Part shown: positions 15,852 to 58,073 of the stretch, in pieces | How positions within the stretch are numbered: position 1 is the first letter of the stretch | Layout of the letters: each line of letters starts with the position of its first letter | Assembly: GCA_035532835.1 (NCBI GenBank) | Contig: DATKQG010000009.1 | Span: 1-64,000, forward strand | Direction: 5' to 3' | DNA: 64,000 nucleotides | Source of the DNA: Candidatus Dormiibacterota bacterium | Lineage (GTDB): Bacteria; Vulcanimicrobiota; Vulcanimicrobiia; Vulcanimicrobiales; Vulcanimicrobiaceae | Made by a program: the position numbers and the translations under genes | The notes under the pieces: generated by a model | What the model saw: only the letters and a program-made list of their open reading frames with translations | What the model was told of the DNA's origin: nothing | Databases searched by the model: none

Positions 15852-15867
15852 GCTGCCGACGTTTGCC

Positions 15868-16049
15868 CACGATCGTGTGCTGTGGGTTGCCCTAGTGTGG
15901 TTGGGGGAACGTGCGATTTTTGTGCAAAAGACAGGATGTCGAACTTCCTTTGAAGTTGCACAAAAACGCACGAGTAGGAGACGCGCAGGATGCGCGTCGA
16001 CGAACGGTTCCCCCAACCACACTAGGGCAACCCGCAGCACACGATCGTG
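15868..16049. repeat. Long inverted-repeat element A
   Basis: Outer arms 15868-15910 and 16007-16049 pair over 43 bp, 42 Watson-Crick and one G-U-type. The 96-base core holds a stem pairing 15911-15927 with 15956-15971 and a 7-bp hairpin at 15980-15998, GACGCGC-AGGAT-GCGCGTC, followed by GACGAACGG. The core is clearly homologous to that of element B (29083-29271), but the outer arms are unrelated. It fills nearly the whole space between the convergent tldE and proC genes. Confidence 0.9.
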
Positions 16050-16056
16050 GAGCATT

Positions 16057-27126: not shown

Positions 27127-27456
27127 GTGCAACTTCATCACCTCACACCCCCGGAATGGGATCGCCTCGCGGGCGACCCGGATTTCCGCGCGCTGGTAGC
27201 GGCAAAACGCCGGTTTATTATTCCCGCCACGATCTTTTTTTTGCTGTATTTCTTCGCGTTGCCGGTGTTGCTTGGGATCGCTCCCGCCTTGATGCGACGC
27301 ACCGTCGCGGGCCCCCTCACGTTCGCTTTCGCGTTCGCCCTCTCCGAGTTCGCGATGGCCTGGATCTTGTTGGCCCTCTATTTGCTGCGAGCCCGGAGAT
27401 TCGATGAGATGGCCGAGGCGCTTGTAACGCGCGCGCGCGAACGGCTCTCGGCATGA
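27127..27456 (+). CDS. DUF485 membrane protein
   Basis: A 109-residue protein with two membrane helices (~30-52 and ~65-90) and the DUF485 signature: FRALVAAKRRFIIPATIFF, then TFAFAFALSEFAMAWILLALYL. DUF485 proteins such as YjcH are almost always encoded immediately upstream of ActP-type sodium/solute symporters, as here, with a 4-base overlap. They are thought to be accessory subunits. It starts at GTG 27127. Confidence 0.9.
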   Translation: MQLHHLTPPEWDRLAGDPDFRALVAAKRRFIIPATIFFLLYFFALPVLLGIAPALMRRTVAGPLTFAFAFALSEFAMAWILLALYLLRARRFDEMAEALVTRARERLSA

Positions 27457-29078
27457 CCACGCAAACGCTCGTCATGTTCGGAGTCTTCGTCGCCATCACG
27501 CTAGTGGTGACGTACTGGGCCGCCGGGCAGAGCTCCACCAGCCGTGGATTCTACGCGGCTCACCGTTCGATCAGCGGCATCCAAAACGGCTGGGCGATCG
27601 CGGGCGATTACATGTCGGCCGCTTCGTTTTTAGGCATCACCGGGCTCATAGCGTTCGGCGGGTTCGACGGGTTTATGTACGCGGTCGGCTGGCTGGTCGC
27701 GTATCTCGCCGTGCTGTTTCTCATCGCCGAACCCCTGCGCAACGCCGGAAAGTACACGATCGTCGACGTGATTGCGTTTCGTCTACGCGGGCGCGGCGTT
27801 CGCGCCATTGCGGCGATTTCAACGCTTGCCATCACGCTTTTCTACATGATCGCCCAGATGGTCGGGGCCGGATCGGTCGTCGACCTGCTCTTGCCCCACG
27901 TGGGCTACACGCTGGCGATCGTCATCGTCGGCCTCTTGATGATGGTCTACGTGCTCTTCGGCGGAATGCTGGCAACGACGTGGGTACAGATCATCAAGGC
28001 GGCGCTGCTGCTCTTCACCGCCCTCATGCTCTCCGTCTTGGTCCTCGCGCACTACGGATTTTCGATAGCGGCGTTCTTACAAGCCGCTGCGAACCTGCGA
28101 GTCGATCGCGTCGCCACGAACCTTTTACAGCCCGGCGCCATCTTCAACGGCGCACACGGAGCCCTCGACCTCATCTCACTGAGCCTAGCCTTGATACTGG
28201 GAACGGCCGGCCTTCCGCACATCCTCATGCGATTCTTCACGGTGCCGACCGCGAAAGCCGCGCGTTCGTCGGTAGCGTGGGCGATGGTATTGATCGGCAT
28301 CTTCTACCTGAGCACCTCGGTGCTGGGCCTGGGAGCCGCAACGATCGTCGGGCAAGAGCACATCGGTAAGCGCGTAACCAATACGCAAGCGATCCGCTAC
28401 ATCATTCGCCACCCGGCCGAACAGCACGATCTCAACAACGATTTGAGAAAAAACGGCTACTTAGTCCCCGTTCGCAACAGCAATCTCGCCGCGCCCCTGC
28501 TCGCCAACGCCCTCGGCGGCGGTTTGCTGACCGCGTTCGTTTCGGCGGTCGCATTCGCAACGATCCTCGCCGTCGTTGCGGGCCTAACGATCGCCGCCTC
28601 GTCCGCATTCGCGCACGATATCTGGTGGAATCTCGTGCGTAACGGCGCGGGCGAAGAACAAGAATACGTCTTCGTTGCTCGCCTAACCGCTGTCGTCGTC
28701 GGCCTGCTCTCGATCGTCCTTTCGATCGGCTTGCGAGAACAAAACGTCGCATTTCTCGTGGGATTGGCCTTCGCCGTCGCCGCCAGCGCCAACGTCCCGG
28801 CGCTCGTCTTTGCGCTACTATGGAAACGCTTCTCGCGCGCGGGTGCGATCGTCGGCATGCTCTGCGGCCTGATCTCGTCGCTAGCCCTGATCGTCGTCGG
28901 CCCCGCCGTCATGGGCGCGCACGCGCTTTTTCCGCTCGACAATCCCGGCATCGTTTCGATACCGTTAGGATTTATCGGCGCGATCGCCGGCACGCTCCTC
29001 GTTCGCGATCCCGAATCCGAAGCGATGTACGCCCAACTCCACGTGCGCGCAGAAACCGGCATCGGCGCCGAAGTATAA
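27453..29078 (+). CDS. actP: ActP-like cation/acetate symporter (SSS family)
   Basis: A 541-residue sodium:solute symporter with about 13 predicted membrane helices. Motifs include STSRGFYAAHRSISGIQNGW, AGDYMSAASFLGITGLIAF and GLPHILMRFFTVPTAKAAR, the last typical of ActP-type carriers. ActP takes up acetate and other short carboxylates. The ~40-residue hydrophilic loop at ~310-350 (RYIIRHPAEQHDLNNDLRKN) is seen in this subgroup. It is paired with the DUF485 gene; the stop is five bases before element B. Confidence 0.9.
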   Translation: MTTQTLVMFGVFVAITLVVTYWAAGQSSTSRGFYAAHRSISGIQNGWAIAGDYMSAASFLGITGLIAFGGFDGFMYAVGWLVAYLAVLFLIAEPLRNAGKYTIVDVIAFRLRGRGVRAIAAISTLAITLFYMIAQMVGAGSVVDLLLPHVGYTLAIVIVGLLMMVYVLFGGMLATTWVQIIKAALLLFTALMLSVLVLAHYGFSIAAFLQAAANLRVDRVATNLLQPGAIFNGAHGALDLISLSLALILGTAGLPHILMRFFTVPTAKAARSSVAWAMVLIGIFYLSTSVLGLGAATIVGQEHIGKRVTNTQAIRYIIRHPAEQHDLNNDLRKNGYLVPVRNSNLAAPLLANALGGGLLTAFVSAVAFATILAVVAGLTIAASSAFAHDIWWNLVRNGAGEEQEYVFVARLTAVVVGLLSIVLSIGLREQNVAFLVGLAFAVAASANVPALVFALLWKRFSRAGAIVGMLCGLISSLALIVVGPAVMGAHALFPLDNPGIVSIPLGFIGAIAGTLLVRDPESEAMYAQLHVRAETGIGAEV

Positions 29079-29082
29079 AGCA

Positions 29083-29271
29083 GCGCACGAGTTGAGCCCG
29101 GCGCCAATGCTTGTGGTGATTGGGGAACGTGTGATTTTTGTGCAATCGACAGGAGGTCGAACTTCCTTTGAATGTTGCACAAAAACATACGAGTAGGAAG
29201 CCCGCAGGATGCGGGCTGACGAACGGTTCCCCAATCACCACAAGCATTGGCGCCGGGCTCAACTCGTGCGC
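29083..29271. repeat. Long inverted-repeat element B
   Basis: Arms 29083-29128 and 29226-29271 are perfectly complementary over 46 bp. The 97-base core is homologous to that of element A: a stem pairing 29129-29145 with 29175-29190, GAGTAGGA, then a hairpin at 29199-29217, AGCCCGC-AGGAT-GCGGGCT, then GACGAACGG. Three of the seven hairpin pairs differ from element A with compensation. It occupies the gap between the convergent actP and 29279-30079 genes. Confidence 0.9.
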
Positions 29272-29278
29272 GTTTACA

Positions 29279-30079
29279 CTAGTGCGGTTTGATGGAGTAG
29301 TGGCTGGTGATGCGCATGCCGTATGCGCCCGGAGCTACCGCGAACGTGATGAAGTATTCTTGGTTGTCGGGATCCACCACGTCGGCCGTTACGCGATAGG
29401 TTCCGTCGGCGTTCGGCGTCGCACTCACATCGTTGACGATCGTGCCGGATTGCAGAAACGTTTCGGTGGGCACTCCGCTCTCGAGGTACGAAGTTGCGAG
29501 TGCGCGATTGCCGTGCATCAACGCGCTCAGGTAGGCGCGGACGACGGCGCTCGCGCCGCTGCTTCCGGTCGCGTTCTGCGGGTTGAGAGGCGTGGGCGAC
29601 GCGGTCGGACGAGGAGCGCGCGTGGGACGCGGAGCGGTCGTCTTTGCGACGGCCGGCGCTAGCGTTACTGCGGGCTTGGGCATCGCCGGTTTCGGCGTCG
29701 CGGCGGGCCGAACCGAGACGGCCGGCGCGGGCGTGATGATGATCACCGCGCTCGCCGGTGCGCTCGAGGGCGTGGCGGTCGGGAGCGCGCTCGGGGTGGA
29801 TGTCGGACGCGGCGTGCGCTTGGGCGTCGGATGCGGCGTTGGGCTTGGCGTCGCCATCGGCGTTTCGGTTGCAATCGGCGTAGGCAGCGGCGTGATCGAG
29901 GGCATCGGGGTCGGCACCTGTACCGCAGGTCCTCCACCGAAGAAGTGCGCCAACACGCCGCCGAGCAAAAGGCCGAGCAAGATGACGGCGATCACCAATG
30001 GAAAAATCGGCAGACCGCCGCCGCCGCGATCGCCGCCGTCGTCGTACTCGCTGCGCCTGCGGCGCGGTCCTTGATTCAC
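29279..30079 (-). CDS. Membrane-anchored protein with Pro-rich linker and C-terminal extracytoplasmic domain
   Basis: A 266-residue protein with a basic cytoplasmic start (NQGPRRRRSEYDDGGDRGGG), one membrane helix (~25-45), a ~120-residue Pro/Ala/Thr linker and a ~95-residue C-terminal domain. That domain (SGASAVVRAYLSALMHGNRA, then TFAVAPGAYGMRITSHYSI) resembles an NTF2/SnoaL-like or conjugal-transfer-type fold by pattern only. GTG 30079 overlaps the upstream stop. Probably an envelope protein; function unknown. Confidence 0.68.
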   Translation of the reverse strand: MNQGPRRRRSEYDDGGDRGGGGLPIFPLVIAVILLGLLLGGVLAHFFGGGPAVQVPTPMPSITPLPTPIATETPMATPSPTPHPTPKRTPRPTSTPSALPTATPSSAPASAVIIITPAPAVSVRPAATPKPAMPKPAVTLAPAVAKTTAPRPTRAPRPTASPTPLNPQNATGSSGASAVVRAYLSALMHGNRALATSYLESGVPTETFLQSGTIVNDVSATPNADGTYRVTADVVDPDNQEYFITFAVAPGAYGMRITSHYSIKPH

Positions 30080-41046: not shown

Positions 41047-41073
41047 GGACGGCTCTTTGTCCTGAGCGCGCTT

Positions 41074-41236
41074 CGTGCTTGCTGGAGGGGTGGCTACACC
41101 GTTGTGGCGGGGACGCGCGCGGATTTCGCATCGTGCGAAATCCACTACTCCGTTCGTCGTCGCTCCCGCCCTCCGGGCTCCGCTCCTCCCTCACAGGCCC
41201 CGCCACAACGGTGTAGCCGCCCCTCTAGCAAGCGCG
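41074..41236. repeat. Long inverted-repeat element C
   Basis: Arms 41074-41112 and 41198-41236 pair over 39 bp, with 36 Watson-Crick and three G-U-type positions. The 85-base core contains a perfect 10-bp hairpin with loop TCG at 41121-41143 and, on the minus strand, a CCCG-GAGGG-CGGG hairpin (near 41165-41178) followed by GACGAACGG, the same motif as in elements A and B. It fills the gap between the convergent pyrE and MBL genes. The arm sequences are unrelated to those of A and B. Confidence 0.85.
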
Positions 41237-41260
41237 AACGCAGCAATAAGCGATAAAGGC

Positions 41261-57993: not shown

Positions 57994-58073
57994 CAGCGAC
58001 CACGAACGGAGTAGATGATTTCGCACGAAGCGAAATCCGCGCGCGTCCCCGGAAAACCGGCATAGCCCGCCAG
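57994..58073. repeat. Partial inverted-repeat element D (C-type core and right arm)
   Basis: Positions 57994-58050 match the reverse complement of the element C core (AGCGACnACGAACGGAGTAG, the ATTTCGC hairpin and GCGCGCGTCCCC), with small differences. Then 58057-58073 is complementary, but for one base, to 55770-55786, 2.3 kb to the left, as if the left arm were separated by inserted DNA. The core part upstream of the GACGAACGG motif is missing. Confidence 0.7.

Follow-up and report, generated by a model that had tools for sequence, protein, structure and literature searches.

A lineage-specific, REP/MITE-like palindromic repeat of Candidatus Eremiobacterota with a structured core and arms that are probably in part locally templated

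Within the analysed stretch of DNA (64,000 nucleotides, hereafter the window), the gap between two convergent genes is filled by a 189 bp palindrome (element B, 29083..29271, + strand), which we classify as a new REP/MITE-like palindromic repeat, specific to its lineage and having arms that are partly locally templated. The reading we favour, with moderate confidence, is that B belongs to a dispersed and apparently non-autonomous family of mobile repeats, in which the core is inherited and the outer arms are partly of local origin.

The two arms of B (left: 29083..29128, + strand, 46 bp, outer ~15 bp GCGCACGAGTTGAGC; right: 29226..29271, + strand, outer 15 bp GCTCAACTCGTGCGC) are complementary at 46/46 positions and enclose a 97 nt interior, which bears out the perfect arms of the original prediction. 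The interior begins with stem P2 (29129..29190, + strand; 29129-29145 paired with 29175-29190), which shows covariation across 32 copies and surrounds hairpin 1 (29147..29159, + strand, CGACAGGAGGTCG), the loop of which contains GGA. It continues through a junction strand (29191..29198, + strand, GAGTAGGA), hairpin 2 (29199..29217, + strand, AGCCCGC-AGGAT-GCGGGCT; the site of IS110-family insertion in other copies) and a second junction strand (29218..29225, + strand, GACGAACG), with an A in the latter pairing with the T of the former (T-A / C-G covariation). On the left, the gene for a sodium:solute symporter family protein (27453..29078, + strand; PF00474, 3.2e-90) ends with its stop codon 4 nt upstream of the left arm; on the right, the stop codon of a convergent gene (29279..30079, - strand; no match in a Pfam scan of its translation) lies 7 nt past the right arm. 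A 12-bp stretch at the end of the left gene (GCATCGGCGCCG) recurs with one mismatch in the right arm of B, possibly as a target duplication. According to the gene model, the window contains three convergent gaps of ~200 bp, holding the elements A, B and C, while its other convergent gene pairs are <90 bp apart.

Element A (15867..16050, + strand) is another member of this family in the window, with arms of 44 bp at 98% and a core that is inverted versus its flanks in the sister genome (G001). Both palindromes fold far more stably than their dinucleotide shuffles (z-scores of -19.5 for B and -18.9 for A). Alignment confirmed that the two cores are collinear, and the compensatory differences first noticed between them are real: three pairs of the AGGAT-loop stem differ, every one of them compensated, and the other stem stays paired (GTGCG/CGCAC in A, GTGTG/CATAC in B) through one double change and one replacement of G-C by G-U. 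The arms of B are, as was claimed, unrelated to those of A, except for the core-proximal ~9-12 bp.

That these two elements belong to a real dispersed family we regard as near certain. A BLAST search with the B core returned 28 matches in its own genome (G000), corresponding to ~24 distinct loci (counted by inspection, after rejoining copies cut in two at contig boundaries or by an inserted IS), and a covariance model added four further, more divergent copies, for ~28 copies in total. The sister genome holds at least 14 copies, and the covariance model R1 recovered the element from 47 of the 117 genomes of the class (Candidatus Eremiobacterota), in 16 genera. When R1 was run on 80 named records from many phyla that had been caught by a loose pattern, it matched only three, all titled Candidatus Eremiobacterota or Eremiobacteria, which also points to lineage restriction; as far as tested, the element is confined to Candidatus Eremiobacterota. 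A strict DNA pattern gave 0 matches in the genome contig collection and a looser one mostly chance matches, the plasmid and phage collections contained no match to the element, and Rfam yielded 0 matches in the window and only two sub-threshold ones (at E <= 1) in eight loci. We found no described family with locus-specific arms in the open-access literature. Four loci of the own genome (L168, L169, L170 and L171) form a divergent subfamily, in which hairpin 2 of L168 and L169 reads TTGGATTTTACAGGATGTAAAATCCAA or near it.

The conserved core consists of an inner stem (P1), P2 bearing hairpin 1, a junction (GAGYAGGA / GACGARCG) that holds one covarying Y-R pair, and hairpin 2. Among 32 genus-level core copies, standard pairs occupy 98.8% of the pair cells, and the copies covary strongly: two-sided change is seen at 19 of 42 pairs, against 10.0 +/- 1.5 in shuffled alignments and 3-5 with slid partners (relatedness among copies is not removed by the shuffles and is retained by the slid-partner versions), with a covariation score of 0.294 versus 0.103 when shuffled. 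Read on the + strand, the core tolerates G-U and almost no A-C, pair 14/73 being GU in 20/32 copies and further G-U pairs occurring at 4/118, 11/111 and 15/72. The arms lean the same way, G-U exceeding A-C by 110 to 40 in other genera (p ~1e-8) and by 21 to 7 in genus g1; these counts come from a neutral score, adopted against the bias of a first, wobble-favouring one (125 vs 33). Since G-U outnumbers A-C on one strand, it is the single-strand structure that is kept. Thus, we hold with high confidence that the core structure is selected, and selection appears to act on one strand (the + strand), as RNA or single-stranded DNA. GGA is conserved in the loops of both hairpins (99 hairpin-2 loops, the rest being mostly CGA, and 83 hairpin-1 loops; hairpins assigned from single-sequence folds). 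Most copies carry GTAG or GCAG before hairpin 2, a variable motif whose T/C position is base-paired to an A/G and covaries with it.

The arms behave differently from the core. Likeness among copies is restricted to ~10 bp beside the core, where an inverted repeat (GGGGAAC/GTTCCCC) is common to the copies; the outer arms differ and are not shared by all copies. Non-orthologous copies with cores 96-98% identical have unrelated arms, yet the orthologs L002/L033 have nearly the same ones. The inner ends GGGGAAC / GTTCCCC were also compared with attC-like integron sites and do not fit RYYYAAC / GTTRRRY. The span of the element is 170-189 bp in 27 of the 31 tabulated elements of genus g1 (the exceptions are two elements cut short by contig ends, L009 and L038, and two whose extension overshot the arms, L001/B and L002), the median in other genera is 164 bp, and this narrow total length suggests an additional constraint.

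Between orthologs, the arms change in pairs. In eight orthologous G000/G001 pairs (two of ten, L019/L044 and L020+27/L037, were left out as being out of register) two-sided change affected 34 of 256 arm pairs, where ~6 would be expected under independence; 29 of the 34 are still Watson-Crick, and one-sided changes number ~11. The same 4 nt were gained or lost in both arms of L005/L034, comparison of A with L042, and of L340 with L342, shows an inverted core between collinear flanks, and both core orientations occur among species at the L104 site (as read from the sequence). Given paired changes far above the independent expectation, together with the symmetric indel and the core inversion, compensation in the arms does not alone demonstrate selection. 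Hence, the original proposal that compensation reflects selection on RNA or single-stranded DNA structure is supported for the core, where G-U is tolerated, A-C hardly so, and on one strand only, and is not required to account for the arms. Neither outcome named beforehand as refuting it (no significant covariation, or arms common to all copies) was observed. Arm divergence (15% per side) lies under that of fourfold sites (24%), which argues that the arms are constrained; we do not claim that they evolve faster than neutrally, and our case is built on the coupling, the symmetric indel and the core inversion.

Coupled changes, symmetric indels and core inversion have been described as signs that inverted repeats underwent template switching (PMC8794818, PMC8604942), and arm homogenisation together with spacer inversion has been reported as well (PMC8604942). 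The arms described here resemble such quasi-palindromes in being homogenised, in their multi-base two-sided changes and in the inversion of the spacer (PMC8794818, PMC8604942), and depart from the known cases in that switching seems to extend to an entire dispersed family and to provide some of the arm sequence. We consider it likely that template switching, as an inferred cause, shapes the arms, and template-switch copying of flanking DNA fits them better than selection on arm sequence.

Sites without the element indicate where arm sequence may come from. Six elements of the own genome have no counterpart at the orthologous site in the sister genome. The empty site of B reads GAAGTTTAGCGCTCAACTCGTGGGCG and already contains DNA matching the right arm over its outer 15 bp (GCTCAACTCGTGCGC), whereas the outer ~15 bp of the left arm (GCGCACGAGTTGAGC) are missing. 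The empty site contains the sequence of one arm over ~20 bp at L017, ~12 bp at L009 and 7 bp only at L024; at L012 there is essentially no arm sequence, and the L021 site has diverged too far for a reading. In genus g25, the DNA to the left of L112, beyond the arm, holds GTATTTTGGGCGC, an inverted copy of the right-flank GCGCCCAAAATAC, and the corresponding empty site in G098 has the GCGCCCAAAATAC flank and lacks the inverted copy GTATTTTGGGCGC. The L137 empty site, also of g25, holds just a few bp of arm sequence. As the L012 and L137 empty sites hold little or no arm sequence, the arms are not always target-derived; the outer arms are mirror copies of the flank partly, not always. All of these empty-site comparisons are visual readings of short alignments and carry no chance estimate.

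The same sites bear on mobility. Among the g25 genomes, G102 has the element at L137 and G025, G097, G098, G100 and G101 lack it, a pattern best read as gain; of the other g25 loci selected for comparison, two (L157, L099) are polymorphic and two (L104, L158) carry the element in most of the genus. That insertion took place, and not loss alone, is in our estimation highly probable, with the best support in g25; for G000 and G001 by themselves, deletion is also conceivable. In g25 relatives that do not have the element, the same gene boundaries hold another repeat with GTCATCCTGAG (L338, L339), to which stretches at L335 and L336, reading TGTCATCC, are related.

We propose that the inherited part would be the ~110-nt core (P1, the long P2 with its GGA-loop hairpin, the conserved junction and the second GGA/CGA-loop hairpin), the fold of which would be under selection in single-stranded form, whether RNA or DNA, in + orientation. 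The outer arms would, at least partly, not be carried by the core: its core-proximal inverted repeat could permit template switching during DNA synthesis, which would leave an inverted copy of flanking DNA on the opposite side, and later switches could re-template one arm from the other and might flip the core. Presumably the core is mobilised in trans, with its selected strand serving as a putative recognition signal. Several observations weigh against this reading: a search of the own genome for Y1 transposase and reverse transcriptase gave no mobilising enzyme, arm sequence hardly pre-exists at L012 and L137, the total length is narrow, and the arms of B are among the longest and most perfect, which suggests quick rather than slow formation. 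A possible, rather tentative version of this proposal has the arms formed in one step, with only the ~110-nt core transposing by means of a putative enzyme that recognises it in single-stranded form, and snap-back copying of the target building a locus-specific hairpin from birth. We know of no bacterial transposon for which snap-back, locus-specific terminal repeats have been described as an insertion mode.

The gene setting has to be weighed against an explanation in which the host maintains the entire hairpin, arms included, as a gene-end RNA or DNA device (a bidirectional terminator, a 3'-end protector or an insulator), so that arm pairing itself would be selected; we think this unlikely. 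Location speaks for it: with neighbour orientations taken from a purpose-written gene caller, for which the window was the training sequence, 20 of the 26 loci of genus g1 with both neighbours called sit between convergent genes, and in the other genera the 3' end of the right-hand gene faces the element in 72/86 cases (in core orientation), usually ~15 nt or less from the stop. Such placement would also be expected if disruptive insertions are selected against in a tightly packed genome. Total element length is narrow, and the element is kept at some gene boundaries across a genus (L104, L158) or across genera (L088/L113, L117/L147). The excess of G-U over A-C in the arms would fit such a device as well. 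Strong compensatory selection could conceivably explain the 29 two-sided changes that stayed Watson-Crick; however, the symmetric multi-base indel is hard to reach by selection on independent mutations. A host device also sits poorly with the missing T-run after either arm (judged by reading the sequence), with a core that flips relative to the genes and with the many orthologous gene pairs that do without the element. Moreover, because the 3' end of the adjoining right-hand gene faces the element, the selected strand is in most cases antisense to that gene. A host-maintained 3'-end hairpin and mobility are not mutually exclusive.

The GGA loops recall decoy RNAs of the CsrB/RsmZ type, which likewise display GGA in hairpin loops, and the core might titrate CsrA through its two + strand CA(N)GGANG hairpin loops, an explanation to which we give little credence. 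The loops do obey the GGA-in-loop rule and lie near the SELEX consensus RUACARGGAUGU, but the hairpin stems (>=7 bp) exceed the length that CsrA tends to favour (PMC7652899), and hairpin 2 repeatedly has a CACGAUG loop. The own genome encodes CsrA, as do 93/117 genomes of the class, yet the protein is equally common with and without the element. Within genus g9, CsrA was found neither in G009 (97% complete) nor in G087 (90%), although incompleteness of these MAGs may contribute, and G087 nevertheless keeps five copies, the three that were read having GGA loops. Unlike CsrB/RsmZ, the element is dispersed, and no promoter for a + strand RNA is evident (judged without a promoter scan).

The element also resembles REP, BIME and REPIN sequences (associated with RAYT transposases), which are likewise small, structured palindromes found outside genes, at their ends, and present many times per genome. 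They carry a GTAG-like motif 5' of the hairpin, and a similar though variable tetranucleotide, a strand-specific structure and the gene-end location would agree with mobilisation of single-stranded DNA hairpins by a TnpA-REP (Y1) enzyme, or with reverse transcription of an RNA, in which snap-back second-strand synthesis would at once yield perfect arms derived from the target. Against this, neither the Y1 transposase (PF01797, Y1_Tnp) nor reverse transcriptase (PF00078, RVT_1) had a match at E <= 0.001 in the own genome (96% complete), whereas control genomes were positive, and we consider either route very improbable. The element further differs from REP in its copy number (~28 vs >100) and in forming a ~180-bp hairpin in which locus-specific arms surround the conserved core. 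REP-type repeats are hit by insertion sequences (PMC1525189), as is the element here. At least four of its copies (L018; L020 with L027; L022; L026; on own-genome contigs C19, C84/C27, C46 and C43, respectively) contain an IS110-family element (PF01548, 6.7e-29; PF02371, 7e-21) inside the hairpin-2 loop (GCAG / AGGATGC).

An assembly or library artefact (fold-back chimeras), as several hairpins at contig ends and the mirror arms of at least 100 nt at L043 (G001 contig C118, which starts ~250 bp away) might suggest, is extremely improbable, as most elements lie inside long contigs flanked by different genes, recur at orthologous sites in two independent assemblies of the genus and are also present in few-contig genomes (e.g., G102, G025, G074). 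L043 itself is probably a fold-back assembly artefact.

The preferred reading, a non-autonomous mobile repeat with an inherited core, places the element near bacterial MITE-like repeats (Correia/NEMIS, ERIC, RUP and others), which are non-autonomous, dispersed, intergenic and of foldback structure, as it is. It shares with mobile elements of this kind the presence/absence polymorphism (six empty sites in G001; L137 filled in one genome and empty in five), and a non-exhaustive look revealed no autonomous relative. The terminal inverted repeats of MITEs are shared among copies and form part of the element, whereas the outer repeats here differ per locus. This unnamed, lineage-wide repeat allows covariation that stems from selection (core) to be distinguished, within the same molecules, from covariation that probably stems from template copying (arms). 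It makes the origin and upkeep of paired hairpins directly testable, and it carries a caution for covariation-based RNA discovery, as matched arm changes need not mean that the sequence has a function.

The window also contains a second palindrome family. Element C (41072..41238, - strand) has the same architecture and a different core, is present in ~10 genome copies and is not detected by model R1. The loci of this family (L059-L070, about 10) have a core with GCGACGACGAACGGAG and a GCCAGGATGGC hairpin, and their long arms vary between loci. A truncated copy lies at 57995-58051 of the window, and on contig C122 of the sister genome (L048) the flanks of this copy and those of C are joined around one core, a junction that represents either recombination between copies or a chimera.
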